Both the position numbers and the translations under genes were made by a program. A stretch of 64,000 bases of DNA, from NCBI GenBank assembly GCA_964030785.1, contig OZ034966.1:4914152-4978151 (forward strand). The letters run 5' to 3'. This DNA is from Siderastrea siderea (Eukaryota; Cnidaria; Anthozoa; Scleractinia; Rhizangiidae). The notes below the pieces were generated by a model. The model did not search any database. It had not been told where the DNA came from and worked only from the letters and a program-made list of their open reading frames with translations. Below, one piece after another: positions 840 through 57,568 of the stretch (the stretch's first letter is position 1; every line of letters starts with the position of its first letter).

Positions 840-1608
840 CTGAACGTAAATTATTCAACTTTGTCTTTGTCAACCAGAGTGGCCGTGCTTGAAAGGCCGC
901 AGAGGAACTCGAGCTAAGCACTCCTACAAAACTCCAGTTGTTGTCAGCCCTCTGCAGGATAGCAGCACCAAGTTTAAAGCGACGATACGGTGGAAAATCA
1001 GACTCACTTAAATAATAGTGGCTATAATTTCGTGAATCTCGCGTAAGTTCATGATGTGTCACGCTGAATGACTGGCCGTCACCGCTCGGATCTGTTTCAT
1101 CTGCAGCCACCATATAACAATCTAACCCACTTATGTATCCATATGAGAACTCAGCCTTCAAAAAGCTGCGCTTAAATACGCTACATCTCTTTTTGATCGG
1201 TCCATGTAGGTGGTGAAACACGGAAGAATGTTGATCGAGCGGAATCACAGTCAGCCCGAAATGCGGTTCTTTGAGGATCTTGCCACGGAAAGCAAGCTCG
1301 CGTAGTTCAAACGTTTTAGGCTCGGAATTTGATTTTTTTAAATCAACGCGGTAATTTTGGATATCAAAATCCCCTTGGAAGACTTTGTCAGCTGTTATAA
1401 TCGCGTACGCCTGTTTTGGGATCTCCAGCTTGACCAAACATCCGCAACCCACTGTTTTAAAACATTCATTTCCACTTCGTCTTCCACCGGGATTTTCAGC
1501 CGGACATCGTTTCTGAATACGGCAGACTCCCCTTTGAGCTCTTTTCCTCATTTCTGCTGTCCTCATTTCTTGTTCTTCTTCTTGGTTTCCCTTGAATAAA
1601 ATCTTCAC
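840..1608 (-). CDS. Degenerate trypsin-like domain exon, first part of a gene running off the left edge
   Basis: The open frame reads from about 1608 down to a splice donor after 840 (TCAG then GTAAAT, phase 1). Its product aligns along its whole length with the exon ending at 20991: both share the segments GVCRIQKRCPA, YAIIT..KVFQ.DF, HELTRDS, LGAAIL.RA and LRSG. The order of hydrophobic blocks resembles a PA-clan (trypsin-like) fold, but the expected His after the AIIT block is Lys, and no G-S-G-G precedes LGAAIL, so it is probably an inactive protease-like domain. Family assignment is tentative. The frame opens at a GTG and an in-frame TGA lies just upstream, so the true 5' end is either an internal ATG (about 1566) or an acceptor such as TTTATTCAAG. 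The rest of the gene lies left of this window. Confidence 0.6.
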
Positions 1609-3917: not shown

Positions 3918-4393
3918 TCAGGCTTTTTCATTTACCCAGTCTTTAAGAACTGTTATTACATCATTTCTTTCGAAGCCCTCCTCACCAAGGGCATCTATAA
4001 GCCTTTGAACGGTAGCTTTACCAGTCGCAGACCACCGTCTAAAGATCTGATCCGTCGGATTTTCCTGCTGCCCTAGATATTCTACCTCATCTCTTGTAAG
4101 TCCAACTTTTTCTCCGAGCATTCTGAAGTCATCAAAGAGTAATCTACGTATATTCAACTTAATACAAATTTTAGAGTAGATTTTTAGAGGAATTTCTGTA
4201 ATGCCCATGGAGAGTCGAGATCCTGTCCGGCTCTTATTGGGCGAAATCTCCTGGACTTGGTGATTGTGCAAAACTCCGTCAACGTTATCACTTCCATTCT
4301 GGCAACTTTGCTCTTTGATGTTCTGCCTTTCCTCACGGTATACTCCCTCAAATGAAACAAACTGTTCACCAACGGAAGCCTCCTTTTTGGTAC
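3918..4393 (-). CDS. Gene B terminal exon: C-terminal Death domain
   Basis: The exon opens after an acceptor (TTTATTAATAAG) in phase 1 and ends with a stop at 3918-3920, about 157 codons. The first 65 residues are a polar linker. The rest is a Death domain: IPLKIYSKICIKLNI, then DDFRMLGEKVGLTRDEVEYL (helices 2-3 with the usual LxxxxGL), an IFRRWS helix, GKATVQRLIDAL and ERNDVITVLKDW. It is clearly paralogous to the terminal exon of gene C (24597-25069): both share KSR..(T)RLS, the DDFRML.EKVGL block and a closing W. Death domains form oligomeric signalling complexes in the cytoplasm; the partner here is unknown. The acceptor ends AAG rather than the more usual CAG or TAG, so the exact exon start is slightly uncertain, but the open reading frame is clear. 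Confidence 0.85.
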
Positions 4394-7300
4394 CTTATTA
4401 ATAAAGGAATTCACATTTCAATTTTATCACATCAGGAGCTGAACAATATGTAAAATATTAGGGTCAGTAAGGTATCCATTTCAATTCGAAGTATCACCTT
4501 TGATTTATTGGTAGTGCTCTCTCTGAGACCTTTTTTTAACGAAATTGCTTTTTAGCCTGAAAACATATTTAGTTTTCAAGGCTGTAACGGGGTTGAAACC
4601 CCCTGACCTCTACGATCCTGGTGCCTTGCTCTACCAACTGAGCTATGAGACCTTCAGATGTTTCACTACGTCATCCATTCCACATGAGGGATATTAGAAG
4701 CCATAACTGACAAATGACATGCTCCCAACATCTCACGACTTCATAGCTCATTTGGTAGAGCAACGCACGGTGACGCCGAGTTCATGGGTTGGGATCCCAT
4801 TTTAGCTTTTTTCAGGCTAGAAAAACAATTGCTAAAATTGCTACAGACTGCGAAGATCTCTCCAATTCATTTCATGTTGATACCGCAGTTCATATGTACG
4901 TGCGTCACCTATTTCACAGGTGGGATATGAGAACCCACAATTAACCTGCTCCCATCCCCTCAAGACTGATAGAAAACCACCTTCTACGGTTTCGAGGTCT
5001 CGCACGTGATTGGTCAAAATAAAATGAGCGTTCCAGAAATATTTCCACCAGTCACGATTTTTACAGTTTGACAGTAAGATGGAGGTAAATTACTTTAGTT
5101 CGTTTTGTCGAGTAGTTCTATATCTTCAGTACAAGATTTTCTACACAGTTACGACAAAGAGTCGTGTGGAAACAGATACATTTTCGGCCAACATGTTACT
5201 GATTACGGTACCAACCAACACATGTACAGCTGCAAAATTGAAAACACGTAACACGTGTAAGCCAAGCCATTTCCAAAATACACTGTTTCTTTTTCAAAAA
5301 GAACGCCAAGCACAGTCTTCAACATGAATACTTCACTCATACAATTTTCTTGTTTAACGGTTGTGTATAAGGCCGCTATTTGAAGAAGAGACCTAAGGCA
5401 GGTGCTAAACACAATCGCCCATAGTCGTCAGGGCTGGCCGTTTACCCTATCATCAATTCTCACTTTAGGGGGTGTTAACCCACAATTTACAACTAACGTA
5501 TATCAAAAGACAAGATTCATACCTGATGGAAGTCGTTTATCTGACGGAGTCTGTTTCAGTAAGGGGAAGTTTTCGCAATGCAGTATTTCTGGATGTTCTT
5601 CTTTCCTTGTAAGAACAGACGAGGAAAGACCGTTGCTTCTTCTAACGCCCTCTTTCGTCTGGGAAAATAAATCCTTTGGGTTAGATGGAGAGTTCTCACC
5701 TTCCGGAGCTTTTGCTTGTACTAAAGAACTGTAAGAGGTCTCAGTTGGAGAGGCACCTCCGTTTCTAGGCTCTGAAAAAAACACATAAAACATCACAAAC
5801 AATTCTGATTTGAGTCATGAAGGCTTAACCATGAAATGAAACAGATAAAGAGTTCCTCACGGTCACCAGTAAAGGGAAAAGTGTGAATATATTGTTATTA
5901 CTAAACATAAAAGGGAGTGGCTGTATGCTTTAGTATCTCAAGTAGATATAGTAGGGTTACTTGCAAAATATTGTTTTTTGTGGACTTTGAACTCTCTTCT
6001 TATCTGATAACTATCTTTAAGTTGATTTAAATTTTTAAACAACTACAAAGATGGCAGAAAGTCCGTACCCATTCTTAAACAAGATGAGATGTTTGTTGTG
6101 AAAAAAAGACATGCAAGTTATGTTTTTCACCCTTTAAAACAGGTAGGTTGCCATTTGTCTCGAATATTTTGCCGTTATTGCTTTTAAGGGCTGTTTGTAC
6201 AAGCTTGTTTATCTGGGAAGCCCTCTGTGCTGACAACACGCAAAACAGTTAACAAGTGAGCACAATGTAAACTGACATAGTTGTCTTACCGTCATTTACG
6301 AAAGGCACCATCTTGTTAACAGAAACCAACGGAACAAAATGGTTTGGCCTAAATTGTGTACCATCACCTCCACTGGCTCGAGTACGTGTCCACATGATTG
6401 TAACAGTTTCCTTCTCTGGATCAAAGCGTCGAGGACAGATAGGAGCATTAAAATACTTTCTTATTTCACTTCCACCACGTTCTGGATAAACACTTTGTAC
6501 CCGACGATTAAGAACGGCTCCGAGTGCCTGAAGATGCCAGTAAGATGCCCAAGACAAAGTACGAGCACTCTCTAGGACCTCATCTTCAAATACTTCCCTG
6601 ATAACATCAGGATTCATTTCGGAGGTTATATTTTTACTTCTTGGGTGAATTTCCTGTTCTTGGGCTTTGATCCTTCCCGGAATGTCTTCGTCTTCCAGAT
6701 AAAACTCGTCGTTAGCAGCAAGTTCAACGACTATTCTAACACGCATTTCTTCATGTTTGTTTTCGTGTCCGAAGGCTAATATTGATGCTGCCCGGAAAAA
6801 ACAATTCCCATCACCGGTGGTTTTAAGAGCACGATAGACAGTGGATTTGCTTGTTGGTATTAGCTCCTGAGATTCCCAGTCTGCTTCATTCCAGTAAAAA
6901 TCTTCAGCAAGTTCAAGCGAGGGAAGATTGTTTTCAATCAAATTAGTGGACACAACTTGTAGGTTTTTAAAACCTTTTTCTGCTGCTTGCTGGAGATGTT
7001 CCAATATGGCCCTAAAGTCTGCTGAGGGAAAGTAAAGTTTGTGTCTTGAGTACACGAAGCAAGACTCAGAAGCTTCGTTGAGTGCAAGTAAATTAGTTCG
7101 ATATTAAAAGAGGGCAATTGAAATGGACTGTGAGTAGTCTCTAATTTTAGCGATTCCGGCGAAATACATGCGCGCGCGAAAATCGAACTTTGATCGTTAT
7201 TCATATGATCCCCCTCTCAAGTGTGTTCGCTGTGAATTAATTTGAAAATAAGTACGGCCATGCAACTGAAAGTCGCAGGTTTTTGGTGAATTATTTAATG

Positions 7301-10300
7301 CATAGCGAAACAGCTGTTTGATCTTTGAGCCTTCCGTAGCCTCCTGAGCTGACGGTCCTTGGACCCATCACAATCAGGGTTGTCATGTTCACTTCAGAAT
7401 AAAACAAATACCCTGAATTTGTTTTATTCAGGGAATTGGGGGTGAGGCATCGCCATAAAATTGTACCCTTCTGTGTTTTTTGAGGAGCCCTGAAGGCTCT
7501 TGAAAAACACAAACACTTAGTTTAAATATTATACCTGCGCCTGGGTGTGCTTCTGCGGATGCTCCAGCCGTTTGAGGTTCTACGCCAGCTCTGCCCAAGC
7601 CAGGCGGCTGTGTTGTGGATGATGTGGCACTTCGAGGTCCTCCACCAGCTGTGGCCACGCCAGGCTGCTGTGTTGTGAATTGTGCAGCTCTTTGAGGTTT
7701 TCCAGCAGCTCTGTCCACGCCAGGCGGCTGTGTTGAGGGTGGTGCTCCGCTTCGAGGTCCTCCACCAGCCGTGGCCACGCCAGGCGGCTGTGTTGTAGGT
7801 GGAGCTGAAATTCGAGGTCACGATTTTCCAGTAAATAATCTGCAACTAACTGGCTGTTATGTCTACTGTCCAAATTTATTACATTCGTTTCTGTGTGTAT
7901 ATCATAATACTCTTTCTTAACAGTTACAAAACTGTAGGGTTATTTTTATAGCTACACTTTCCTTAAATTTGAGTTTAATGTTTTTTGGTGCAACTGGCTT
8001 GTCTTCACCTAAAAAGAGAGTTGCGGTTTTAGAGAGCCATCTGAGAAAACTTTGTCTAAATTCTCCACTGAATTCAAAAGCCTTGTACACACCAAATAAA
8101 ATGTATACCTGATGCAAGAGAGTTACCCAGTTACAGTGGAAGCCTCGTATCAAAGGCGAACCGCTAATATGGCCACCTCAAAGACCACTTTATTTTGGTT
8201 TTCATGTAAGACCTTTAATCTGGCCAATCCCGTACATACTGTACGTCCAACGGCCATGTCAGTCCAAGGCACGGTAACCATTTTCATTGTAAATAGCCCA
8301 GTTTCGAGTTAACCAAGACCGCTGAATAAAACTGTATTACTGAAGACCAGGCCCCAGTTGTTCAAAAGGTGGATAGTGCTATCCACCGGATAAATCCCTA
8401 TGCAGTGGATAACCCAATTGGTGTCCCTAATACGTATCCACTGGATAGCGATTTATCCAGTGGATAGTGCTATTCACCTTTTAACAACTGGGGCCAGACT
8501 TTTACAGGGTTAGTCTCAATCTTAAGCAAAAGATGTGAAAATACTAGCAAGAAAGTACTGTACTCTGAAATAAAACAGTGCACAAAGTGTGAATAGTTCA
8601 TCATCTCATTGGTATTTGTGCATATTTTACTTCAGATTGGGACTATAAACCCGGTACACACGCATCTTTTTCTTGCTGAACTCGAAACTGGACCATTACC
8701 CTGAAATGAAAACAAGAAAGAAACACAATCTTAAATCCTCCTACTTCACGTACACTACAGTACACATGAAGCAACTTTTTGGTTTGCTTTTTCATACTCC
8801 TGAGGGGCACACACTTCCGCACCTTTCGTTTTCAGCCACTACTCATTCTATTGTTTTCCGTCAGACAAGTTAGATCAACCTCATTACAGCCAGATTCTTG
8901 AAGCCTTTTGGTAGCGGAATCAACAGAGTTCCACTCTATCACTTAAGGTTACTCCGGACCTTCGCGGGTGTCCTCGGGGAAAAAATTCGTATGCGCGCCG
9001 TTTTAAAGGAAAACACGGCATATCGTTGGAAAGCTTAAGAAATGTAGATTTCGAAAAAAAATTATAAATTGCCGGTTTCCTCAATTCCGCAAAAGAAAAT
9101 CGCAAACAACCATGAAACTGACCATGGGTCATTCAACTGAATTAATAGGGTATCAAATTCAAGCGCACTGGCAAAATAACTGCAAAGTGTTAATCACAAA
9201 GGATTAGTCATCAAAAGTGTGTCAGCATTTTTCGATATTCTGACTAGTTATTCTTTTAATTAATTTGTCAAGTTCGAGCAGCAAAGAAAGCGCGATGGGC
9301 ATTGCATTGAAGATCGCCACGGGTGAAATATTATAAATTTCAAAAATCCCCGAAACGCTTTTGTTTTACAACATCTAAGGAATGTTCAGGCCAAATTTCA
9401 CAGAAATCTGCCGAATTTTGGTACCCTATTAATTCATTTTTTTAATTGAATGACGCATGGTCATTTTGGCGGTCATTTTTGCAATTTTCTTTTGTGGAAT
9501 TAAAAAAACTGGCAATTCATATTTTTTTCCCGAAATCTACATTTATTAAGCTTACCAACGATATATAGTTTGCCGTGCTTTCCTTCAAAATGGCGCGCAT
9601 ATGAATTTTTTCCCGAAGGACACGGGAGGACACTCGCGAAGGTCCGGAGTAACCTTAACTGTGGTCGATTGGAGTGTTTTAAATACAGTGTCATACCTTT
9701 TGCACTAAGGTATCCGTCAAGAATCAGCAAGGCGTCTGCACGCTTAATTTTCTCTATCTCTGTGTTTAACTGATCAACTGTCATCCTAGGACGTTTTAAT
9801 TTCAGCCACTCAAGCATCATTTTGGTTGGGCGTTTCCTTGGCAAGCTTCCCTCGAATTCATCATACACTTTGTTTGACACACCAAGTTTGAATGCAAGAT
9901 TCCGCCAATCTTTAACTCCCGGAGACTTTTTGTTAAGAAGAGTGCTGATGTTGTTTAGAAGATCAGAGTCTGGCCGGAAGACATCAGTGAGGAGGGAGTC
10001 ATCTGTAAGTTACAAAAAGTAACACTTGAAGTCGTACATTAACCTGAAACATTTCTCAAAACTCATATACTGTATGCTACACAATATTGACTGACTATGG
10101 CAGTGACATGACAAGTTTTTTTGCGTGCACATTTCGCATACACGAAGCAATTATTGCAATGGAAAGAGATTATATGACCACCTGTGGGCCTGTTATGCTG
10201 TACAAGGTGGTTGTAACCACCAGCTTGCCTGAACGAACTCCTAAAGTGTGATCAGATCAATTGAAAGCTACTGAGCAGTACGTTTCTGTGGTGCAGTGTC

Positions 10301-13300
10301 TACGAGGTGGTGGCGGAGGAGTAACTGTGGTGCTGTTTATTCTGTTGTACAAGGAGGTTCTAACTTTTGAGTCGTGGATGAAATCCTAAAGTGTGACCAT
10401 TCAAATGAAAGCTACTGAGCAGTACTTTCCTGTGGTGCTGTTTATTATGTTGTACAAGGTGGTTCTAACTTTTGAGTCTGTGGATGAAATCCTTATGTGT
10501 GACCATTCAAATGAAAGCTACTAAGTGGTACTTTCCTGTGCTGCTGTTTATTACGCTGTACAAGGTGGTTCTAACTTTAAGGTCTGTGGATGAAATCCTA
10601 AAGTGTGACCATTCAAATAAAAGCTACTGAGTGGTACTTTCGTGTGGTGCTGTTTATTGTCCTGTACAAGATGGTTCTAACTTTTGAGTCCGTGGATAAA
10701 ATCCTAAAGTGTCACCATTCAAATGAAAGCTACTGTGCAGTATTTTCCTGTGGTGCTGTTTATTATGTTGTACAAGGTGGTTCTAACTTTTGAGTCGGCT
10801 TATGAAATCCTAAAGTGTGACCATTCAAATGAAAGCTACTGAACAGTAACTTTCCTGTGGTGCTGTTTATTATGCTGTACAAGCTAAGTGGTTCTAACTT
10901 TTGAGTCTGCATATGAAATCCTAAAGTGTGACCATTCAAATAAAAGCTACTGAGCAGTATTTTTGTCTGGTGCTGTTTATTATGCTGTACAAGGAAGTTC
11001 TAACTTTTGAGTCTTTGTATGAAATCTTAAAGTGTGACCATTCAAATGAAAGCTACTGAGCTGTACTTTCCTGTGGTCCTGTCTATTGTACAAGGTGGTT
11101 CTAAATCTTGAGTCTGTGGATGAAATCCTAAAGTGTGACCATTCAAATGAAAGCTAGCAACCAGTACTTCCTTGTGGTACTCCTAGGTTTTGAATCTTTG
11201 GATTTAAAAACTTACTGAGTAAAGTATTGTAACGAGTGCTGTGTCAGACGACCACAACAACCAAAATCCAGTTCTCAAATGTCTTTTAATTGCTACACAC
11301 TGCAAGTTGCTCTACAGTGTGAAATCAACACACAAAACCGGCCCGCTGTTACAATGCATAAGACCCTTCTATATCTAGTATTGCATGTACTATTTCATTA
11401 ACTATTTGTGATAACAGCTGTCTGCATAACTTAAACGTACTTTACAGCTTGTGCACAACTGTTCTAAAATACCTGTTCTGTTACAGTACTTTCATCAGAT
11501 CTAAAGTTTACCAATGTTACCTGGGCACTGTCACATTTCAATCAAACAAACATATTACAGCGATTACTGCAGTACAAGACTGAGGTATGTTAAATAAATT
11601 ATAATTTTAGAAATAAGTGATTAGCTTAAGATACAGCACAAAACTTTTAAATTTGAAAGAAAACATGTTTCGGCATCCCTGATGCCATCCTCAGTTGAAT
11701 GAAAAAGCTACAACAAACCTATAATTATATATGTAACAGTAATTAGAAATTGATAATGAAAATACAAGCAAGAATAACAACAACGAAAAAAGCGTGATTA
11801 TGTGAAAACTGAACATACAGTTTATAAATTATTGTGTTTGACCTGTTGATTTAACATAGGCTTTTTCCAGGTCAAACAGGTCAACAGGTCAAACACATTA
11901 GTTTAAAACTTAGTATATTTAGTTTTCACATAATTACACTTTTTTCGTTGTTGTTATTCTTGCTTATATTTTCATCAAGAATTCTAATTGTAACTATTAC
12001 ATCTATATAGCTTTGTTGTAGCATTTGCATTCAACTGAGGATGGCATCAGGGATGCCGAAACATGTTTTCTTTCAAATTTAAAAGTGTTGTGCTGTATCT
12101 TAAACTAATCACTTGTGAAATATACATTGTACCAGTATACATTTGACCTCAATGGTAAGAGCAGAAAAATGTACCATTCTTACTCCTACCTTGCACCTCT
12201 GCATGGGTCAACAGATTTAGAACATCTTTCCTTGGCATTTCACTCAATTTTTGTTTGAGACTCCTGACAGTCAGGTGACTGAACCCTTCTGTTTTACTTA
12301 AATACCGAAACAGGAGGGCAGTTGGGTTTTCAGATGGGTAATGCAACTGAGCTTCAAATTCCTTAAATCGCTGACCGTTCGAAATCAGTTTTTTTGCAAG
12401 ACTTCTCCAATTCCACATCTGACTTTTAGCTGAGTCCAGCTCTACTGCAAGTCTGTCAAGTAAGGATGGATCACTGTCAAACACCTCATCAACCAAAGCC
12501 ATCTCACTGAGACCTACAAAAGCAATCATTGTAGCTTCTGAGCAAACAGAAATAGCAATAATTTGTTACTAACAGTGGAGTTACATAATTTGACCAGGGG
12601 TACATGGATTTTAAAGTGACACAATTATATGAAATGGCTGCCAATGGCCAGAGTATACTGCTGGCACTCAATGGTCCCTGGATGGGATGCTACAGTCACA
12701 GGGTTAACTGCACCAGGTTGTCACTGGTACCCATTTGTGTACCCGGGTGGAGAGAGACAATATGAAGTAAAGTTTCTTGTCTTTTCTTACCAGTAAAAAC
12801 AAAAACAACACAAAGCAGAAACCAGGCTTAAACCACCGATCCTCTGACTTTCCAACTGAAAGTTCAACACTACACCGATCGAGGCACCACCCAGTTGCGA
12901 ATAAAGCCATAGTTTAATACCCCTAAATACCCAGAGGCAAAGAAACTAACCACCCTACCCCCCACATCCATAACATGCCCTTTTTCAGTGCTGAAAAAAG
13001 GAAAATAAATTGTAAATATATTTATTGAATGTCTAATAAGAAGAAATACTGAGATAACCTTTAAGGGTGTAATGGGCATTTGAACATTTTCATAGAAAAT
13101 GTGCACTAGAATTAGATTAATTAATAATAATTATTATTACTATTATCATTTATTAATTAACTATTATTAAGCTGGAAGACAAAAGCTCTTGCATTATATA
13201 TGTTGTCATCAGGGTTTGTACAAGATTTTGGATACAAAATTCAATGCTCTTTACATTTTTCCAAGCCATTTTAAATTTTTTTCAGATTCAAACTGCCAAG

Positions 13301-16300
13301 AAAGAGACAAGAAATGAACTGTGATCTGCACCTGAAAAGACTGAATGATTTGATTGAATATGATTTGAAATAAACTGAGGAGGATACAAAAATCAAAACG
13401 TTCGTAAAATAAAGTGTTCTTACTTTTATTGATCTATTGTCTATTGGCGTGCCCTTGTTGGCTTAAATTAAGCAGTTTTGTTGCTTTAAAATTTTGTCAC
13501 TTGAGGTCCTAATCCATTACTGTTTGATGGACAGAACCTGCTGTGGGATCAATGGCAAACAAAGACAAACATGACTTACTTCGAAAATTTTCTATCAAAT
13601 CATTCCTGTGGATGTCCTTCAAAGCTGCTTTCAGTTTTCCAACAGTAAGAGGTTCTCTGCCTGGTTCATTTAGTGTGGACAAAAATGGGAAAAGATGCAC
13701 TGTCGGACTCAATTCAAAATAAATTTCAAATCCTTTTTGAATTTCAAGTGGTATTTTCAGATTACAAGCCATGTGTTTCCAGTTATTCAACACTCTGTAC
13801 TCCTTGTCCAGACACCGTGCCAGGTCATCCATCAGGGCTGCATTAGCAACAACATCACCAATATAGAGAACTATACAAGGGAATAGTATGGTATATACAT
13901 GTAAGAAGTCAAACTTGCCACATATTCTATAACATAGGGATAAGTCCTGTTGACTCCAAACATTCACAATACTTGTTTGTACTTTTGCTATTCAGTCCCT
14001 CAGTTGGCAGCACTGGAATATTGACAAATGTGCATTTCCAGAAAATATCGATACCCTCCCCATGGACGGTCAATGGAAGTTACAAGGAGGTGATGAGGGA
14101 GAGGTCTAAAAAAATCAACATGAAGCTATCCAGTCTTGAATTTCCAGTGAAGTGAGGGAAGGGGGGGGGGGTAGGGGGGGTCAAATGAAAATACATTGAC
14201 GGTGCAGGGTGGGGGTATGGATATTTTCTGGAATCACAGATTTAAACAAAAAAAATAATATGCACATGTACAATAATGTTTTAAATGCAAATACTACAAT
14301 TGGAAATTGCTGTAACTGAGGTTTCTCATTACATGCTATCACTGTACCCTGCTAAAATATTTTGACAAGATCTGGCTGTAAATTTAAATACTTTCATCTT
14401 TACCTTCACTGTCATCATCGTTGATGTTCTTGTTACCATTGTTGTCACCATCAGTGTCATTACCATTTGTGCCGTCAATATCACCACTAATGTTGCCGCC
14501 ACCATTTGTGCCATCACCACTACTGCCACCACCATCGCCTCCACCATTTGTGCCATCAGCACCACCATCCCCACCACCATTTGTGCCATCGGCACCACCA
14601 TCCCCACCACCATTTGTGCCATCAGCACCACCATCCCCACCACCATTTGTGCCATCAGCACCACCATCCCCACCACCATTTGTGCCATCAGCACCACCAT
14701 CCCCACCACCATTTGTGCCATCAGCACCACCATCCCCACCACCATTTGTGCCATCGGCACCACCATCCCCACCACCATTTGTGCCATCGGCACCACCATC
14801 CCCACCACCATTTGTGCCATCGGCACCACCATCCCCACCACCATTTGTGCCATCGGCACTGCCTTCCCCACCACCATTTGTGCCATCGGCACCACCATCC
14901 TCACCACCATTTGTGACATTAGCACTCCCACCACCACTTTGAGCACTACTACCCATACCACCATCACTGTGATTGGTGATGGCGGTAGTGGTGACAGTAA
15001 TAGTACCTCCATCAGCTTGAATGCTTTCCACTGATGAAAAAATAATAATCATAATTAAATTAAATTATCATTACACCAAATCTATATAACTACTAAACTT
15101 TACAAATTGGCAGTGCAACAACAACTTTATTAGGTATTTTCATATTACATGGCATTGCCAATTAAAGGATTAAGTTCTAACGAAACAAAAGCAAAGAAAA
15201 AATTACTGTACAAGAATCACATATCTTGACTTTTCATTACAGAAAGATATTTTAAAAATGATCGATTTAAGATGTTCCTGGATTCAATGCGTGCAGATTC
15301 AATCCCAACTGTATTTGCAGGCTTGCAAAATAATCGCAAGGTTTGTGTTACTAGTAAACAGAAGGTTTACATGTTGAACCATCAGTCATATTTCGGATGT
15401 CAATATTGGACTGAAGCAGGTCAATAATATAACTATATTTGCTGTTTGTTTTGGTATAAGGGGCACAAGAATATAACATGGTATCCATCTTCTACAAGAT
15501 GTAGGGTATGCACGGGACTAAGACAATCCTCTTTTGGGATTAACAGGTTCTCATAATGACCAGTCGAATTAGCAGCCTAGGTATGATTTCTTATTTGAAA
15601 TTTAGAAAGGGTTATTTCTCTGAGCAGGATTCTTTAGAATTACTTCCAAATACTTTCCTAAAGAATTATTCAATTATTGTTTTATAAAATGCAATCAATT
15701 TTTGTGAGTTCTTTAAGTTTCTTTTCCAAAAGTCTAAATAGTGATCTGTCATTGCCTTTGAGAAGGTACTGAGGTTTTTTGGTTGAGTTAATTTCTCTAT
15801 ATTCGTGTGCAAGAGTTTGTGATGCTACAATAAATAGAATTAATTGTAATGAGGAATTTGATCATGAAAGGCACAGGCCGTTTCTTTCAACCTTAAGTTC
15901 CTAATACAGGAGGAAAGATTGTTTCTCAATGGACTCTTCGTTCTTTAATTAATGAGAGATACTGAAGGTACTGGAGAACTCTTTTGCGTATTTGAAGGAT
16001 AAGTGGAAATCTTTCCATCTCTGCTCTAGCTCTACAAGCAATTTCCAGGTAGATGCTTTTGTGTTTACTCCCAGGAAGGTATAGGGTTTTGCAATGAGAA
16101 TTCTAGAATTCTCATGTGTTGATGGGCTCAGGGCTATGTTCAGTGAATGAGTATGTTGTGGTTCATTTTAATCCTCGGTTCAATTTTTATTTTCCTTTGT
16201 TTTTGTGTATAATATGGCAATGTCCGACAATGAGTTAAAAACAAAGGAAAATAAAAATGAGGCCTTCCAAGGGGTAAAAGCGACAAGTGACACGGACCTG

Positions 16301-19300
16301 AAAACTGGCGACATGGGACTTTCTAAACACCGACCAGCGACTCAACTGAACCAGCAAAATACGACAGTGACACAGTAAGCACTATAGATAAACGGCGACG
16401 TCACGAAATTGTGTATTTTACCACTAAAAGATAATCAGAGTCTATTGATTGGTACTTTAGTGCAGCCAGTCAAAATTAGGATTGGTAACCACCTTTACTG
16501 CTTGCATGACTTTGCTTCGAGGGTTCCGTAAATCGAGACTGAGAGCAGACAATCAGATTTTTTTCCTATTTATTTAATTTTACGGTCTATATATTACGTA
16601 AGTCGCTCAAGGCAACAAACTGACCAATTTTCAGGATCTCTGCCAGTATCTACGTTATCAGTATAGTTGTTCTTTTTTATGCAAAAAATTGACTTGATTT
16701 ACTGAATGAGAATCAAAATGCTGAAAATCGCATTCCTGAAGTACAAAATTTCAAAATCTCCAGGGGGAGCATGCTCCCGGATTCCCCTTGATGCTCCCGC
16801 CTCCTGCAGGTGTCTATTTCTTGGTAAACTCTTCCTTTCAAACTCACTGTCTCTACACTCTACAGTGTCTCGTGTTTTAGAGTTTCTAAGTGTTAGAAGA
16901 ATTAATTCGTCGTCCCAAAATAACGGATTTGTAAATTAATTTTCTTTTGAGAGTAATAAAAGACAAAGAACTTGAGTGTTTCTTACTCCAAAGGGTTAAG
17001 ATATGGGGGCGTGTTCGTTTTTGTTAAAAAATAATAATAAAGAATGATTTACATAATGACTTCTCTTCAAGTTCAAGTTTTTTTCTCGCCAAGCAGTCTT
17101 CCATATCACGTCGCCTGTTGAAGGAGAAATTTAGGAATACAGCTGTGTTTGCGATCTTCATGTTAAGAGACAGGGGCATCCAACGAGAAATTTTAGCCAA
17201 ATACTTGAAATATCATTTTCAGCTCTCTTAGACTGTTTCAGAGCTTTTTAAAGGTATATTTGTGTAAACTGATACGGATTGATCTGTTCAACGTTTTTAG
17301 CTGAAAATTTAGGCCGCAGAAAATTTTAGGAAACTGAATCCAATTCGCCAAATTTCTGAGCTCCTGACTGCTCTCCGAAGATGCAAGTTGACCTTATTTT
17401 GCACTCTAAACGACATATTTGTCCCTCCGAAAACAATAGGAACTAATACGTCCTCTTGTTGCAAAAGTCTGACATGACGTTTTGCCAAAGAAATCTCTAG
17501 CATTCACTGTAATTAAATCCGAAAATATCAGGCGATTTTAGGCCTTCTGAACAGATATTTGCCAAAATGAACCGCCCCTGAAGAGACTTCAGGCCTCACG
17601 GCGAGGCAAACTCTTTACTGACCATCTAGTACCTATAATCTTGATTTGCGTCATTTGGGGGGTAAACAGAAGGAACTGGTTGCCAATAATTTAAAAGTTC
17701 CTCTTCATGATCACGTGATATTGAAGACACTAAATGTATGTTTCAATGCTCTTCTTGACCATCTGCCGAGATGTGCCAAAAACTCCAAAACAAAACTCAT
17801 TTAAATGGCAAAGGAGGGCAGTGACTATGACATAACCAGCAATTCCATTATTTTAGAGAATTTATAAAGCGACAGCAACATTTACATGTGCTACGAAAAC
17901 GACAGCGACATTTACACCGTTAGTTCAGCAACACCATTCCTGAGAAAGACGCAACAAAGCGACAAGGCTACCCCCCCCCCCCCCCCCATGGAAGGCCTCA
18001 AAATTGAACCAAGGGCCGGATAAAACTGAACCACAACATACTCAAGAAAGTGACCTGAGTATCTGATTTTCCCTAACGCATTTTCACCAGAAACCCATGA
18101 TAGTTCATCATCAAACTAATGTCTTGACGTTTAAACAAATTCTCCTGAATTGAACCATAAGAAATATGAGGGTCCACAATAGGATTGGTGGGATACGGGA
18201 TTTGGCTAATTTTTGTGGCGATATTCAGGATGGGAGCTGAAAACGGGAGTGGGAAGCGGGAATTTCAATTGAGACCGGGAGCGGAATTTTTTGTTATTAA
18301 GGGGTCAGGATGCGAGAATCTCAAGGGGAGAGTAGCGGGATACGGTATTACAATTTTTGTGAGACTGCATGATTTGACCAGCTCAAGCTGATAGAAATGG
18401 ATCGTTTGTGAATGAAGTGTGTCGGCTTTCAAGTAATGAATTGATCATGGAAGAGTAGGCTGCACCTCAAGCTATTATGAATCCTTTTGTGATGTTTTGT
18501 GTTGATTTCGGAAAGGGGTATCAAGTCACATGCCGTGTTGCATTTCTTGGCCTCGTCTGCCTTCTTAACTTTTCCGACCCTTTCCGATTGAAGGTTTGTT
18601 GGAGCATCTATGATCAGCTATGGTTAGTCTAGCCAGGCAACAGTTTTTGGCGGTCGCCAAATACAAGGAACTCAGCATCATAAATTTTGTTGCTAAATAT
18701 TATGAAAAGAGTGCGAGCAGGAATGCCTCTCTTTGAAAAAAAAAAAACATTCCTGAGAAGAAATGTACTGAAAGCGAGTAATATAAAGACACTGAAAGCT
18801 TCAAAATAAACTGTGAGTTAGGTGAGTCCACTTTTATAAATCTTTTGTTACATTTCATTTTTGCGTACCTCATAACTGGACCGATCTTGCGTGACCTTTG
18901 TGCCCCTAGCCTTGTCTAAGGACACAACCCATTTATATACAGCTGGATTTACATAGAGAAACATTGTGGAAAAAAGGTTTGTCTCTAATGAAACGCCGAC
19001 CTTCAGATCAAACCCAAGGCGCGCTTACCACCCCACAACTTGAACAACCACCATTTCACTTACATACTCAGTAGGTTGTCTTCCAAAAAAGGAAGGACCG
19101 AGAATAGGCAGAATATCGTAGCAAACAATCTTTGTCAATTTTACCTTTCACTCATACCTGGACAAGAAAATGGTAAAACAGGTCTAGAATAGAAGAACAC
19201 AAACGAAAAACTTTTTACCTTCATTTATAGTGGCGATATTTAATTTTACATCGACCATAAAAACGTGTTTACTTGTCGTCTAGCCATTGAATAAAGGTAT

Positions 19301-21753
19301 GTGAGGTTTTCATCGTGAAAGTAGAAAACTATTTAAAAATTTCGGCGAGATCGAGATTTCGACGTAAAGCAGGGCGTAACATGTCGATAATTTCGATAGT
19401 CGATAAAAGTCGATCGTTGTCGATCGTTGTCGATAGTAATCAATCGACAAATATCGGAAGTCGATAAAAATCGATCACCCGATTTCTTGTGATTATCGAT
19501 TTTGATCGATTTTCAATGTTACAGTTCGATTTTGATCGATTTCAATCGACAAGTATCGAAAACAAAACGATGTATGGTGGGAGACAAGACTACAGTTGTT
19601 GAACGCGGAAAATTTATAACGAAGCAGGATTGACTGTGCCAAGACTTAATTTTACCGATTTTACACTGTAAATTTTGAAAACTAAAATAAACATGAGGTG
19701 AAAGCAGCAACTACAGCAAAAGTAAATCATTTTCAGATCGAATCTCACAATACTCTCCGACTGTTATGAGTGAATGAAATGTCAAGAAGACCATCGCAGT
19801 TATAGACGCATCAGTGATTGCATTCGACGTCAGGTGAACGCAACCTAAACTTGACGCGGGAGTAGCAAAGAAGCATGGTCATGAACATTTTGCGAAAAGA
19901 AACTCGATTTGTGGGTTAGGTACCGGATACAGAAATACGTCATAGACCTTGGACGGACAGCAAATGACCTCGCTTTCACGTCCGAAGGCGCCTGTGCTGT
20001 GAAGAAGCTTGTTTCGAAAGAGAGAGGTTCCACGCTTGAAATAGCAACCTTTCGACCAAAAAGTTATTGCAAATCCTTGGTCGAAATCTTACAAACGTAT
20101 GTACGAATCCTTGGTGCATATATCAACCTGCAGTTAGCCGTTTAGTTGGCAAACCTAATCTCGACGACTTCCATGAGGAACCACTCGGCATACAACATTG
20201 AAATTATGCCCGTGAGAGTAACACGCTATTTTGATACGTCGTATCGCATTTAAATCATTTCTTTTTCGAATAATTGCCTTGGCGAGTCACTTTCAAAGTT
20301 TTGTCTATATGTCACGTGGGATTTTTAAATTTAGAAGTCGCTTTGCCTGCTTACCTCGAAATCCATTCGGAAATCGACGACCAAAAGACTTTATCGAGGA
20401 AGCCACGAACTGAAAGAGGTTGAGAGGACGATTGCACGAATGTTTTTTTCCAGTTTATCAAAGCAGGCTTAGTTGTAACTTTTCAGGTTATTGCTCAGTT
20501 TTTTTGTTTAACTTTATTGTCATACAGATTTACTTAAGAACTGTTTACACTTCTATGAAAAGTCGTTGAAGCTGTTATTGTTTTGGTTAATTTCGTAGCC
20601 GATCGAGAGAAAATTGGTCTACATATTTGTCGATAAAAGTCGATAATCAGTTGAAAATCTTGTGATTATCGACTTTTATCGACAAATTAAACTTGTCGAT
20701 TGACAATTATCGACAAATATCGAGTACTTTCGACTTATCGACTACGTTTTCGATGATCGATTTTGATCGACATGTTACGCCCTGCGTAAAGAAGGACGGG
20801 CTGGCGGGATTAACAGGAAAAAATAGGCGGGATGGCGGGATCTGAGAACCCTCTAATTGTGAACCCTCAAATATGAGTTGACTGGTCAGTGAGAAGAATG
20901 GGCAGGTTGAAATTGATTCAAGATTGAAAGAAAGAGGTTTCAGTTCACAATAAGCTTAAGCTTAAGTTTAAGCTTAATTTATAAGCTTACCTGAACGCAA
21001 ATTTTTAAACTCTTTACTTGACAGCAAAACAGGTTGAAAGCGTTCTGGATTGCCAGAGTCCGAGTTTAGCACTCCAACCAAACTCCATTCTTCGTTAGCC
21101 CTTCGTAGAATAGCAGCGCCAAGAGGAAAACGAGGCCAGGATACGTTGCTAAGATAATACTGGCCGGAAGAATCCCGCGTAAGTTCGTGAGGTTTCACAC
21201 CGAATGATCCAGATCGGTTGCTTGTATCATCCGCCACCATATGACAACATACTCCATTTGAGAATCCATTTAAGAGCTCCACTTTAAAATGGCTGTGTTT
21301 CAAAACGTTGCATTTTTTCTTAAAGAAACCATGGCGGAATATGGAGGAATGGGAATTTAGCGGAATTACTGTCAGTCCGGAAGCCAAGTCTTGTAATATC
21401 GGGCCACTGAAGGCAAGATTCATTTCAAATGTTTTCACCTTTGAATCCGATTTTTTAAATTCCACGCGGTATTTCTGAGCATTAAAATCCTCTTGGAAGA
21501 CTTTGTTACTTGTTATGATCGCATATTTAGTCTGCGACCATTCTGGAACATGTTTGACCAAACTTCCACAACCAACAGTTTCATAAACTTGTTGTCCTCC
21601 TGATCTTCCGCTGAGATTTCCAGCTGGGCAACGTTTCTGAATCCGACAGACTCCTCTTTCATTTTTCTTTTCATTTCGTCTGACTTGTGCTCTTGTTGGT
21701 TCTCCCCGTGCTGCTTTCTTTATAAGGCTCATTTCCAACCAACTTCCTGTCAA
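3918..21753 (-). CDS. Gene B: predicted multi-domain protein (trypsin-like / Death x3 / OTU / Death), whole span
   Basis: Predicted spliced gene on the minus strand with exons 21753(or internal)-20991, 15030-14404, 13870-13580, 12513-12190, 10002-9697, 7804-7535, 7021-6290, 5771-5523 and 4393-3918. All acceptor and donor junctions read as AG/GT and all are phase 1, so the exons join in frame in this order; the product would be roughly 1,300 residues. Domain order is degenerate trypsin-like, Gly/Asp repeat linker, Death, Death, Death, Pro/Gly repeat linker, OTU protease, Ser-rich linker, Death. A combined role in death-fold signalling with ubiquitin editing is inference from the domains. The weakest link is whether the 5' trypsin-like exon truly splices to the linker exon 6 kb away across nested transposons; it could be a separate gene. 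An extra upstream exon is possible. Confidence 0.6.
4556..4652 (-). mobile_element. tRNA-derived SINE head
   Basis: On the minus strand the sequence carries an A box (TAGCTCAGTTGGTAGAGC) and a degenerate B box (GGGGTTTCAACCC), followed by a tail with TTTTCAGGCTAAAAAG. The B box is decayed and no CCA-ready acceptor stem closes, so it is read as a SINE relic rather than a tRNA gene. Confidence 0.5.
4734..4820 (+). mobile_element. tRNA-derived SINE head, opposite orientation
   Basis: TCATAGCTCATTTGGTAGAG is an A-box-like start, followed by GGGTTGGGATCCC in the B-box position and the same TTTTTTCAGGCTAG tail seen in the minus-strand copy just to the left. The two copies face away from each other in the last intron of gene B. 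Confidence 0.45.
4821..5522. other. Gene B intron, nothing further recognised
   Basis: Intron between the Ser-rich linker exon and the terminal Death-domain exon. Open frames here have no splice or codon support. The first 100 bases may be SINE body. Confidence 0.4.
5523..5771 (-). CDS. Gene B exon: Ser/Pro-rich linker between OTU and last Death domain
   Basis: A strong acceptor (TTTTTTTCAG) opens the exon and TCAG then GTATGA closes it, both phase 1, giving 83 codons. The product is polar and Ser/Pro/Lys-rich (for example TETSYSSLVQAKAPEG and SNGLSSSVLTRKEEH), with no recognisable fold, so it is probably a flexible tether between the OTU domain and the C-terminal Death domain. Matching phase with both neighbours is the main evidence that it belongs here. 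Confidence 0.7.
5772..6289. other. Gene B intron
   Basis: About 520 bases between the OTU exon and the Ser-rich linker exon. No feature beyond AT-rich sequence is seen. Confidence 0.4.
6290..7021 (-). CDS. Gene B exon: OTU-family cysteine protease domain (vertnin-like)
   Basis: A clear acceptor (CTTTCCCTCAG) and donor (GACG then GTAAGA), both phase 1, bound a 244-codon exon. The catalytic block TTGDGNCFFRAAS places the Asp at exon residue 71 and the nucleophilic Cys at 74; RPNHFVPLV near the end supplies the His at 228. The stretch NKHEEMRVRIVVELA matches the conserved helix after the nucleophile in OTU proteins, and the long N-terminal part resembles the vertnin-like OTU subgroup. With all three positions present it is predicted to be an active deubiquitinase-type protease, cutting ubiquitin or a similar modifier; the substrate is unknown. 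It sits between Pro/Gly and Ser linkers, which would let it act on complexes held by the Death domains. The whole domain is one symmetric exon. Confidence 0.85.
7022..7534. other. Gene B intron
   Basis: Intron between the Pro/Gly linker exon and the OTU exon. A short palindrome near 7392-7432 (CTGAATTTGTTTTATTCAG) and another around 7485-7505 are the only structure noticed. Confidence 0.35.
7535..7804 (-). CDS. Gene B exon: Pro/Gly-rich linker of four 20-residue repeats
   Basis: The acceptor (CGAATTTCAG) and donor (GCAG then GTATAA) are both phase 1; the exon is 90 codons. The DNA is four tandem 60-bp units, and the protein repeats the pattern TQ(P/Q)PG(V/L) followed by a small-residue stretch (for example TQPPGVATAGGGPRS). 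All three minus-strand frames are partly open because the unit is 60 bp, but only this frame joins the flanking exons in phase. It is likely a flexible spacer between the third Death domain and the OTU domain. Copy number may vary between alleles. Confidence 0.7.
7561..7804 (-). repeat. 60-bp coding minisatellite, four copies
   Basis: Four consecutive 60-bp units are visible, each containing GCCACGCCAGGCGGCTGTGT or a close variant on the plus strand. They lie entirely within the Pro/Gly linker exon. Confidence 0.85.
7805..8349. other. Gene B intron
   Basis: AT-rich intron sequence upstream of the linker exon. No gene or repeat is identified. Confidence 0.35.
8350..8494. mobile_element. Short palindromic MITE
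   Basis: About 145 bp with inverted ends: GGCCCCAGTTGTTCAAAAGG on the left, and the matching complement (CCTTTTAACAACTGGGGCC) on the right. Inside are repeated GGATAGTGCTATCCAC and ATCCACTGGATA motifs, so the whole unit folds on itself. It lies in a gene B intron. Confidence 0.8.
8943..9658. mobile_element. TTAA-flanked inverted-repeat element (piggyBac-type target site)
   Basis: Both ends are flanked by TTAA (8943-8946 and 9655-9658). The terminal repeats start GGTTACTCCGGACCTTCGCG and continue inward through a segment containing GGCGCGC and TTTCGGAAAAAAAT-like blocks for over 150 bp. The centre is AT-rich with no transposase frame. Short open frames in either arm are artefacts of the element. 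Its right edge lies only 38 bp from the Death-domain exon at 9697-10002. Confidence 0.8.
9697..10002 (-). CDS. Gene B exon: third Death domain
   Basis: The acceptor (TTGTAACTTACAG) and donor (AAAG then GTATGA) are both phase 1; 102 codons. The product is a complete Death-domain-like bundle: DSDLLNNISTLLNK (helix 1), VKDWRNLAFKLGVSNKVYDEF (helices 2-3 with the conserved W and LA..LG), TKMMLEWLK (helix 4), MTVDQLNTEIEKI (helix 5) and RADALLILDGYL (helix 6). It is one of three consecutive single-exon Death domains, each diverged from the others, so the triplication is old. Death-domain assignment rests on motif order, not on a search. Confidence 0.8.
10237..11205. repeat. Intronic tandem satellite, about 106-bp unit, about nine copies
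   Basis: The marker GTGTGACCATTCAAATGAAA recurs at about 10391, 10497, 10603, 10709, 10815, 10926, 11032 and 11133, with a diverged copy near 10240. Five intervals are exactly 106 bp; others are 111, 106 and 101. Each unit also holds GTGGTGCTGTTTATTATG and TTCTAACTTTTGAGTC. The array sits in the intron between the second and third Death-domain exons. Confidence 0.9.
11614..12114. mobile_element. Foldback element of about 500 bp
   Basis: Long inverted arms: AAGTGATTAG..TTAAGATACAGCAC on the left and its complement ending at 12114. The arms continue through ACATGTTTCGGCATCCCTGA and GCCATCCTCAGTTGAATG. The centre contains several copies of AGGTCAAACAGGTC. No coding frame is seen. Confidence 0.8.
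12190..12513 (-). CDS. Gene B exon: second Death domain
   Basis: The acceptor (TTGCTTTTGTAG) and donor (CAAG then GTAGGA) are both phase 1; 108 codons. The product shows the Death-domain pattern: SLLDRLAVELD (helix 1), NWRSLAKKLISNGQRFKEFEAQL (helices 2-3 with conserved W and LA..L), PTALLFRYLSK (helix 4), LTVRSLKQKLSEM (helix 5) and RKDVLNLLTHAEV (helix 6). The GTAGGA donor is slightly unusual at position +4. Orientation, phase and fold match the neighbours on both sides. Confidence 0.8.
12514..13579. other. Gene B intron with AT-rich simple repeat
   Basis: About 1.07 kb between the first and second Death-domain exons. Positions 13110-13165 are a TAATTAATAATAATTATT-type simple repeat. No exon-like frame with splice sites is seen. 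Confidence 0.45.
13580..13870 (-). CDS. Gene B exon: first Death domain
   Basis: The acceptor is read at CCTTGTATAG and the donor at CGAA then GTAAGT, both phase 1; 97 codons. Motifs in order: ALMDDLARCLDK, LNNWKHMACNLKIPLEI (conserved W, then LA..L-like spacing), PFLSTLN, LTVGKLKAALKDI and RNDLIENF. An internal alternative acceptor (GCTAATGCAG) would shorten the exon by 44 bases but break the phase-1 rule, so the longer form is preferred. It is the N-most of the three clustered Death domains and follows the Gly/Asp linker. Confidence 0.75.
14034..14234. mobile_element. Palindromic MITE with G-rich core
   Basis: The left end ATTTCCAGAAAATATCGATA and the right end (complement ATTCCAGAAAATATCCATAC) pair for about 40 bp including GACGGTCAATG. 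The centre holds runs of G (14161-14186). It lies in the intron between the Gly/Asp linker and the first Death domain. Confidence 0.75.
14404..15030 (-). CDS. Gene B exon: Gly/Asp-rich linker with 11-residue repeats
   Basis: The acceptor (TTTTTTCATCAG) and donor (GAAG then GTAAAG) are both phase 1; the exon is 209 codons. It begins with a Thr/Gly-rich segment (ESIQADGGTITVTTT), then about eleven near-identical 11-residue repeats of the form GGGDGGADGTN, and ends with an acidic Asn/Asp stretch (NDTDGDNNGNKNINDDDSEG). It is low-complexity and acidic, so probably an extended, disordered spacer, possibly ion-binding (inference). All frames on both strands are open through the repeats because the unit is 33 bp and lacks stops; the minus-strand GGADGTN frame is chosen because it alone joins proper splice sites in phase. 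Confidence 0.7.
14540..14912 (-). repeat. 33-bp coding minisatellite, about eleven copies
   Basis: On the plus strand ACCATTTGTGCCATC recurs every 33 bp from about 14546 to 14875, with edge copies diverging at each side. The copies differ mainly at a single A/G (atcAgc versus atcGgc), in two blocks, suggesting recent block expansion. Confidence 0.9.
15031..16148. other. Gene B intron, no recognised feature
   Basis: AT-rich sequence with a few moderate pyrimidine tracts. No exon-like frame bounded by splice sites is visible on the minus strand, and no transposon ends were found. Confidence 0.4.
16149..18043. mobile_element. 1.9-kb inverted-repeat transposon remnant
   Basis: The left end GAGTATGTTGTGGTTCA and right end TGAACCACAACATACTC are exact complements, continuing imperfectly inward through GGTTCAATTTT and GAGGCCTTCCA blocks. 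A poly-C run lies at about 17971-17987. No intact transposase frame is present. Confidence 0.65.
18168..20867. mobile_element. Inverted-repeat element with CGGGA-rich subterminal repeats (host of a nested element)
   Basis: The left end GAGGGTCCACAATAGG matches the complement of the right end near 20850-20867 (GAGGGTTCACAATTAGAGGG). Both subterminal regions carry many copies of GGGA or GCGGGA (18195-18350 and 20800-20850). The interior is interrupted by the element at 19370-20784. Confidence 0.6.
19370..20784. mobile_element. hAT-like non-autonomous element rich in CGATAA motifs
   Basis: The ends are CAGGGCGTAACATGTCGAT and its complement. They are flanked by the direct repeat CGTAAAG (19363-19369 and 20785-20791). 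CAGGG termini suggest hAT, although that group usually makes 8-bp duplications. Both subterminal 150-200 bp are dense in tcgataa, tcgatt and cgacaa words in both orientations. The middle (19560-20590) has no transposase frame. Confidence 0.75.
20991..21753 (-). CDS. Gene B 5' exon: degenerate trypsin-like domain
   Basis: The open frame is closed by a donor at 20991 (TCAG then GTAAGC, phase 1). The product aligns along its length with the exon at 840-1608. Trypsin-like layout: a VGCGSLVK strand, then YAIITSNKVF where the catalytic His would sit (Lys instead), GLTVIPLNSH in the Asp region, and RFPLGAAILRRANEEWSLVGVL where a G-S-G-G-P-I serine loop would be (no Ser). It is therefore predicted to be inactive, perhaps a binding module. 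The frame's first ATG is near 21731; the upstream limit could instead be an acceptor at AAAGCAG (about 21714), which is also phase 1. Family assignment is by pattern only. Confidence 0.6.
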
Positions 21754-24596: not shown

Positions 24597-25069
24597 TTAA
24601 CTTTCTAACACCCAGTTCTCAAGTATCTCAGCTACATCTATTCTCTCAAAATCATCTGCCTTCAGCAACTCAATCAAATTTCCAACTGTCGCTTCACTTT
24701 TTTTTGACCACGTCTTCAAAATTTCATCTGTGTGGTTTGGAAATTTCTGCTCTATGAAGTCTGTCTCATCCCTGTTTAGCCCAACTTTCTCTGCAAGCAT
24801 TCTGAAGTCATCAAATCGCAGAATTCGCTTGACATTCAACTTCAAACAGACTTCAGAGTACACTTGCAGAGGAATACTTGTGACTTTAGTTGAAAGCCGA
24901 GTATTAACTCGACTCTTAACTGGACTCCCCCCCGCATCCACCACATCACGGCTTGACTTATGTCTTTTCTCACTTGAAGAATCCTTGTCTGCTAAACTTG
25001 CTCTTTCAACTTGCCTTTTGATGTGGTCTACTTCACGGTCCAGGCTTTGGTCATTGTTCTCTGTGCCAT
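24597..25069 (-). CDS. Gene C terminal exon: C-terminal Death domain
   Basis: The exon starts after TTCTCTTTTAG in phase 1 (the G from the previous exon plus AT makes Asp) and ends with a stop at 24597-24599, about 157 codons. Residues 1-60 are a charged linker (DGTENNDQSLD, KRQVERASLADKDSSSEK). The remainder is a Death domain: IPLQVYSEVCLKLNVKRIL, FDDFRMLAEKVGLNRDETDFI, ILKTWSKKSEATVGNLIELL and ERIDVAEILENW. It is about the same length as, and strongly similar to, gene B's last exon, including the linker-to-domain junction (KSR..TRLS), so the two genes share a C-terminal cassette. Confidence 0.9.
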
Positions 25070-27575: not shown

Positions 27576-28140
27576 CTACAACATTCATAGAACAATAAAT
27601 TAATAGAGCTTGAAATAAAAATATTAAAATACACGTCATTGACGGCTTGTAGGTCAAAGTTTTGGTTGCTTTTCGCTTGTGCTGAGATATGGTTTTTAAT
27701 AGTCTCTTGCAGAACAAAATCAATTTATTTTTTCAAGAAACAACGTCATGGTGTCTTTTTTGTTTCTTGCAGTTTGGCTACCAGTTTCGAGAAAAAACCT
27801 ACATTACAGGCAGGATTCCTAGCCACGTGGTCACGTCTTTGGCAAGACTCCAGGTCTTGTTAATAAAAATAAAGCCAAATTTAAAGCCTTTGTGGATAAG
27901 AACAAAGAAGAGCACCAGAACAGTACAAGGCACAAGGAAAACTCCCCTTATTAAAAAATTAATGGCTGGACTCAGAAATAATATGGTTCAGTTACAGTGT
28001 ATGTGCCATTAACAAATTGTAACCTACATACAAATCATTCATAGAAGGGTAAGAGGGAGGGGGAAGGGAAGGTTGATGAAACCTATGCAGTTGTGGTATG
28101 TCAATGCAGCTATGAAAAGGTTTTACAAAAAGTATGTACA
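27576..28140. other. Upstream of the gene C glycosyltransferase exon
   Basis: Intron or 5' flank. Short open frames on both strands have no splice support. Nothing else is recognised. Confidence 0.35.
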
Positions 28141-46395: not shown

Positions 46396-47356
46396 ACAAG
46401 GCCCGAATACGTTAATTCATAGTAAAACGCAGCATCTGTTAAAAGTTGTTTTCCCGTAGACATCATCTAGTCACACGTGCAGTACCTTGTAAAAACAGCT
46501 TTTGTGATTTCCCAGCGGCCATGTCGCGACTGCTTCTTAGTTCAATTTTATATGGAATATTTACCTGACCCCTTGAAAATCTCTACAAACTCTTTCCGTT
46601 TCACGTGGAAGGCTTTCATGCGCCAGAGCTAGTAGAATATCCTTTTCAACCTTCCACCTTCCCTTACTACAATCTTTGAACATGTCCGGCTTAAAAAATT
46701 TATAAATCTTACGTATTTGTTGTTATAAGCCAGAGATCATCTAGTAGTTATATTGGAGCGTCTCCTTAGGTTTTATCCACACTAAAAGGTCAGGGAGTAC
46801 GTCGTTTCAAGCTTTAGAACCCATCGTAAATGAAAACGTGTTTCTGTACAACATGGACGGCCGCAAGCTATTCTGTGTCGCAGCTGCTGAGCACTCAATA
46901 TAGATTGTAGTATCGAAGCATTGGAACACGTTGTGGATCTATCAAATTTTCCTGTAAAAAAAACTTTCCTTTTCAAGGAAATTTTGTTTCTATGACATCT
47001 ACCAGGGCAGTTAAGGCCATGGTGAATAAGGTTTAGTTTTTGACACCCCTCCACCACCGGAGTTTTTAGCTTTCGATAAGCTTTAACGGGACGACTTAAC
47101 ATGGGCAGAGTCAATACGCTTTTAATTGAAAAACAATATATTAATTATAAAAAAACCCTTCATATACCAAGAACAATGTTTTCCGAGAGAAATAAGGCCC
47201 GAATACTTTAATTGGTAGTAAAACGCAGCATCTGTTAAAAGTTGATTTCCCGTAGAAAACATCTAGTCACACGTGCAGTACCTTGCAAAGATAACTTTTG
47301 TGATTTACTAACAGCCATGTTGCGACTGCATTTTAGTTCAATTTCATATGGAATAC

Positions 47357-57475: not shown

Positions 57476-57568
57476 TGTACCAATTAAAAAGAACTTTGAA
57501 TTTTGTAATTTTTAGTCATAGGACATCCAGGAGAAAAGTAAGACTAACGATTCTTAATAACAAGAGAT

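Follow-up and report, generated by a model that had tools for sequence, protein, structure and literature searches.

A coral Death-domain gene with a trypsin-fold-like head and a candidate OTU protease cassette between its last two Death exons

The window analysed here is a 64,000-nucleotide stretch of Siderastrea siderea contig OZ034966.1, on the minus strand of which nine exons are readable between 21.7 and 3.9 kb. Exon 1 (T, 20991..21732) opens with an ATG at 21732, encodes a trypsin-fold-like domain and ends in a phase-1 donor. It is followed by a Gly/Asp/Asn repeat linker built of 11-residue units (exon 2, GD, 14404..15030), a Death-like domain resembling bDLD3 (exon 3, D1, 13580..13870) and two Death domains (exon 4, D2, 12190..12513, with an alternative acceptor at 12537; exon 5, D3, 9697..10002). 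Downstream of these lie a Pro/Gly repeat linker that is the least certain of the exons (exon 6, PG, 7535..7804), an OTU cysteine protease domain that is complete, has N-terminal helices and retains the motifs DGNC and NHF (exon 7, OTU, 6290..7021), a Ser-rich linker (exon 8, S, 5523..5771) and a terminal Death domain with the stop codon (exon 9, D4, 3918..4393).

Intron phase is 1 at all eight introns between these exons, and the length of each of the seven internal exons is a multiple of three. With generic splice matrices, the top-scoring open-frame site within 45 nt of an edge is in phase 1 at 15 of 16 edges, the Pro/Gly acceptor being the sole edge where the best nearby site has another phase (phase 0), and the predicted site itself ranks top at 12 of the 16. 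The T donor (CAG/gtaagc) scores at percentile 100 (rounded), while by score the D4 acceptor is weakest (percentile 79), followed by edges of D1, GD and PG (85–90). An earlier reading of the sequence alone had described nine minus-strand exons carrying one module each as symmetric phase-1 units, and this layout is borne out. A codon-usage model was built from nine domain exons in the window, leaving out whichever exon was being scored and using none of the linkers. Under this model all nine exons of the gene score higher in the predicted frame than in either other frame and exceed the 95% point of the intron windows (−0.040), and this holds for the linkers too (GD 0.378, PG 0.266, S 0.137; the OTU exon scores 0.212); this control is lenient, because the intron background windows come from the same intron stretches as the reference.

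The core of this gene has an annotated counterpart in Oculina patagonica, the 821-aa uncharacterized protein LOC144634499 isoform X2 (P0001), which aligns by tblastn to T, D1, D2, D3 and D4 in the same order and on the same strand at 51–69% identity (T 51%, D1 69%, D2 61%, D3 69%, D4 58%). The Death segments of P0001 span residues 362–454, 456–559, 558–660 and 665–821 for D1 to D4, respectively, and as in the window gene a linker separates them from T. The alignment to T (21714-20866) overshoots the donor by 125 nt, and in an exon-level alignment T is 60% identical to its Oculina counterpart. The alignment to D4 spans 4394-3927, so that homology starts where the exon starts, and the D4 acceptor, weak by score, is thereby supported. 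The start of D2 is probably 12513 and not 12537, because Oculina homology begins at 12511. An alternative D1 acceptor at 13837 (score 5.0 versus 4.7) was ruled out, as Oculina homology extends to 13871. P0001 is the only full-length relative among the matches listed and, in two of the protein database searches, the only named Oculina entry among the matches listed, many of which are nameless; the best named protein matches of the window, again among those listed, are from stony corals (Oculina, Acropora, Montipora). Since P0001 provides independent collinear evidence, T to D4 constitute one gene, as had been proposed for the T and Death exons, and by this sequence comparison the core gene of T, linker, D1, D2, D3 and D4 is real. 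P0001 differs from the window gene model in passing directly from D3 to D4, without a Pro/Gly or Ser-rich part, and phmmer finds no OTU domain in it.

The sequence-only reading counted four Death domains, and three of these exceed the Pfam Death (PF00531) cut-off of 22.6 bits: D2 (23.7 bits; E 5.4e-5 for the longer form from 12537), D3 (26.3 bits, E 8.2e-6) and D4 (38.6 bits, E 1.2e-9). D1 falls below it (12.8 bits, E 0.13) and is closer to bDLD3 (23.9 bits, E 4.2e-5), itself below the cut-off of 27.1 for that family; P0001 scores above that cut-off, with 51.0 bits to bDLD3, and its best stretch is the D1 counterpart. The Death domains of the window and of Oculina pair one to one. In the Death tree the pairs are starred for D1 (99/100), D3 (96/95) and D4 (99/99), while the tree fork is unstarred for D2, which pairs with Oculina D2 through its identity and path length.

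The head of the gene had been described as a trypsin-like pseudo-protease. All fold matches to T, among those listed, are trypsin or HtrA, obtained with a poor structural model, and family searches in Pfam, PADLOC, NCBIfam and PDB sequences gave nothing useful. Compared by eye with trypsin motifs, the positions of the catalytic triad seem to carry Lys for His (TSNKVF), Gly for Asp (GLTVI) and Leu for Ser (LGAA), and in the alignment Lys, Gly and Leu at these positions are common to T, its Oculina counterpart and a second T exon in the window (T2, 840..1566, minus strand). T2 is 54–55% identical to T and 41% identical to Oculina T, has a phase-1 donor, and begins another gene whose remaining exons fall beyond the window start. 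T is apparently trypsin-fold-like with its catalytic triad replaced, as suggested by the motif reading and weak fold evidence; Pfam lends the description no support.

The GD exon is a 33-bp tandem repeat of 12.1 copies whose codon differences are mostly synonymous (77 synonymous and 40 nonsynonymous, or 77 of 117 single-difference codon comparisons); no significant match was found between the GD linker or the T-D1 interval and the T-D1 linker of Oculina. The PG exon, a 60-bp repeat of 4.1 copies with a donor at percentile 88, shows no synonymous bias (9 synonymous and 38 nonsynonymous; 9 of 47), and given its splice sites and the absence of this bias it is the weakest of the nine and its status as a real exon is doubtful. 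Its similarity to the TQPGG linker of acroporid proteins is non-significant. The S exon is bounded by splice sites scoring at percentiles 91 and 99, and its Ser-rich linker has a match in none of the 24 fetched proteins. A further candidate exon at 8008-7958 (acceptor percentile 97, but a poor donor at 65) lies in an interval where acroporid N-termini gave no significant match, and is not claimed. Repeats also occupy the introns, with a fold-back element of inverted arms at 8940..9661 in the D3-OTU intron, a second fold-back element at 11615-12114, such that the two flank D3 with one in each intron, and a 106-bp minisatellite of about 8 copies at 10325-11178 in the D2-D3 intron. Elsewhere in the window, tandem class A GPCR genes (7tm_1) lie on the plus strand at 56516-62749, comprising a full-length open frame (56516-57475) and neighbours (60032-61079 and 61720-62749) that are split between frames, as in a decaying array, and three similar short ORFs (PVVEGCQK...) occur on the minus strand at 46782-47144, 49203-49505 and 52370-52660 as a repeated unit with a spacing of 2.4–3.2 kb.

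The OTU exon sits in the D3-D4 intron of the core gene, on the same strand and in symmetric phase 1, with splice sites at percentiles 100 and 99 and 243 open codons. It scores 27.5 bits against Pfam OTU (PF02338; cut-off 23.3, E 4.9e-6). The Asp of the DGNC motif, a Cys and a His are the catalytic residues of OTU proteases, and the corresponding D70, C73 and H227 are unchanged in all 15 aligned OTU sequences. The AF2 model is confident over its full length (pLDDT 86.8), and all 50 fold matches listed for it are OTU folds. By tblastn the exon is 52–55% identical to four acroporid proteins across 7019-6285, edge to edge within 5 nt. The exon is thus, by sequence and model, a real and complete OTU domain with predicted deubiquitinase activity, which upholds the protease module of the earlier reading. 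The HMM searches which that reading had proposed for each exon recognise OTU and the Death domains D2 to D4, and T has no Pfam counterpart. Identity of the window OTU to those of A20/TNFAIP3, VCPIP1, TRABID and OTUD3 is 14–19%, and these human proteins are not known to carry Death domains. In the OTU tree the window domain clusters with acroporid proteins and P0016 (98/97), apart from family members found in transposon-like proteins (P0002, P0006-P0010 and P0018), of which P0006 and P0010 were so classed by precomputed Pfam domains, presumably of Helitron and hAT type, and P0002, P0007-P0009 and P0018 by eye. The presence of one family in both settings hints, at the sequence level, that mobile elements may have traded this domain with coral Death genes.

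The acroporid members of this clade are OTU-Death proteins from Acropora muricata (P0003, P0005 and P0014), A. millepora (LOC122948815, P0004) and Montipora foliosa (P0015), with Pfam OTU just below its cut-off in P0003 and P0015. In all five the OTU domain precedes Death domains that match D4, and those of P0003 and P0015 fall in the D4 clade. Unlike the window gene model, these proteins lack T, D1 and D2 in phmmer comparisons, carry 2–4 tandem Death domains and have a different linker before OTU; weak Death-to-Death matches to D3 occur in two of the five. Both halves of the window arrangement, T-Death and OTU-Death, therefore already exist as annotated, uncharacterized proteins. None of the titles listed in the literature search concerns an OTU-Death or T-Death protein of corals, the locus names LOC144634499 and LOC122948815 returned no papers, and the amphioxus domain-shuffling paper PMC2575513 contains no occurrence of OTU.

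Directly upstream of the T-Death gene, on the same strand, is probably a GT4-Death gene (24597-27639, minus), as read from the sequence. One exon (26400..27639) encodes a GT4-conflict glycosyltransferase (PF20706; 183 bits versus a cut-off of 26, E 1.1e-53) and has a phase-1 donor (AGG/gtaagg) at percentile 100 (rounded); the terminal exon (24597..25069, minus), entered through a phase-1 acceptor, encodes a Death domain (E 3.9e-10) and is paralogous to D4. This Death exon, 20.7 kb from D4, groups with D4 and Oculina D4 (98/98), and six acroporid Death domains from P0003 and P0015 share the D4 side of the deepest split, opposite D1-D3, at 100/100 with a tool warning that long branches meet there. 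In the window the D4 clade is therefore joined to GT4 and to the T core, and in acroporids to OTU; the joins read as phase 1 at both window loci, and the acroporid OTU-Death join was read at the protein level. Three kinds of partner for a single Death clade, together with phase-1 joins, give good support to the shuffling of a Death cassette, and so to the exon shuffling proposed from symmetric phase-1 cassettes as far as the terminal Death clade is concerned. The cluster contains parts of three same-strand genes of similar style (T2, T-Death and GT4-Death).

Related arrangements are described in PMC8195603, where TRADD-N is named as a partner of the GT4-conflict glycosyltransferases of marine animals; the window neighbour joins GT4-conflict to a D4 relative in phase 1, and the common theme is adaptor domains joined to varied effectors. 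Adaptors like Death domains are described in that text as bridging effectors and regulators in bacteria and animals alike (PMC8195603). The window fits the effector-associated-domain principle of that work, with related adaptor copies (D4 and its relative) joined to different partners at one locus. The bacterial bDLD3-trypsin proteins treated in the same text (PMC8195603) pair a trypsin-like domain with a bDLD3-like one, an architecture that the window gene may share. Their trypsin is a predicted peptidase effector, whereas the triad of T looks lost. The term 'OTU' has no occurrence in the main text of PMC8195603.

The sequence-only reading placed every module in one protein. The joining of T to D4 stands through P0001, whereas T and OTU occur together in none of the 24 fetched proteins, T being found by phmmer in one and OTU in the other 23 among the matches listed. 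D4 is the only Death exon downstream of OTU in the window (tblastn, E < 0.5) and pairs with the last exon of the core gene, so OTU, if spliced onward, would share at least D4 with that gene. D3, OTU, S and D4 are mutually phase-compatible, and because all exons in the D3-D4 intron begin and end in phase 1, skipping or including the cassette would leave the frame unchanged. The locus is best explained as a Death-domain gene with the core T-linker-D1-D2-D3-D4 and a spliceable OTU cassette in its D3-D4 intron, the chance that a transcript carries both T and OTU being about even. The cassette would comprise OTU with one or two linkers. Homotypic contacts drive the assembly of Death domains. The apparently dead trypsin fold would serve as a binding or sensing head that binds a partner, and D1-D4, as homotypic assembly modules, would draw this partner into a Death assembly. 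The skipped form, corresponding to Oculina isoform X2, would be a pure adaptor; in the included form the OTU deubiquitinase would join the assembly and edit or trim ubiquitin there, much as A20 does at mammalian Death-receptor complexes. That the trypsin-fold head, as a dead enzyme, and the four Death-fold domains share a single protein with an active, A20-like OTU, encoded by an optional phase-1 cassette, is put at slightly short of an even chance. We infer the inclusion of OTU in T transcripts, the activity of OTU and an immune role, which would be in coral innate immunity.

A possible, less probable account is that of a nested gene or alternative promoter, in which an acroporid-type OTU-Death gene begins inside the D3-D4 intron and has its last exon, D4, in common with the T-Death gene, the products being T-D1-D2-D3-D4 and (linker)-OTU-S-D4 with T never joined to OTU. 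The acroporid OTU-Death proteins stand alone with separate N-termini, so OTU may own a promoter, and the Oculina T-Death protein without OTU is consistent with this account. However, when the N-terminal parts preceding OTU in three of the five acroporid proteins were compared with the stretch from D3 to OTU, no match reached significance (best 32–40 versus shuffled 95% points of 45–47), and no first exon was identified. It is improbable that the OTU block is instead an insertion that is unused or decaying, derived for instance from transposon-borne OTU DNA, and that T-D1-D2-D3-D4 is the only functional gene. OTU relatives in transposon-like proteins (P0006 and P0010), the fold-back element in the same intron (8940-9661) and the absence of the OTU block from P0001 would agree with such an insertion, but the long open frame with its similarity to OTUs of other corals, the retained catalytic residues, the strong splice sites, the coding score, the confident full-length fold and the clustering with acroporid proteins and P0016 rather than with family members from transposon-like proteins argue against it. 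Unrelated adjacent genes or an assembly join with coincidental phases are very unlikely, as P0001 spans T to D4 in order and the phases agree at all eight introns, even with three linker exons that have no significant match among the sequences compared.

Marine invertebrates recombine Death-like adaptors with many effectors by a mechanism that is seldom visible. Here one clade of Death exons is found with three partners: a 27-kb cluster places a conflict glycosyltransferase next to a trypsin-fold/Death core, and the third partner, OTU, occurs in other corals. In this genome the union of the T/Death core with OTU would be either half or fully fused. A deubiquitinase family found in transposon-like proteins is thereby linked to host Death-domain genes. 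Whether coral Death complexes have a built-in deubiquitinase, and whether its inclusion is set by splicing, can now be tested. If the optional-cassette reading is true, alternative splicing would determine which Death assemblies come with a built-in means of erasing ubiquitin.
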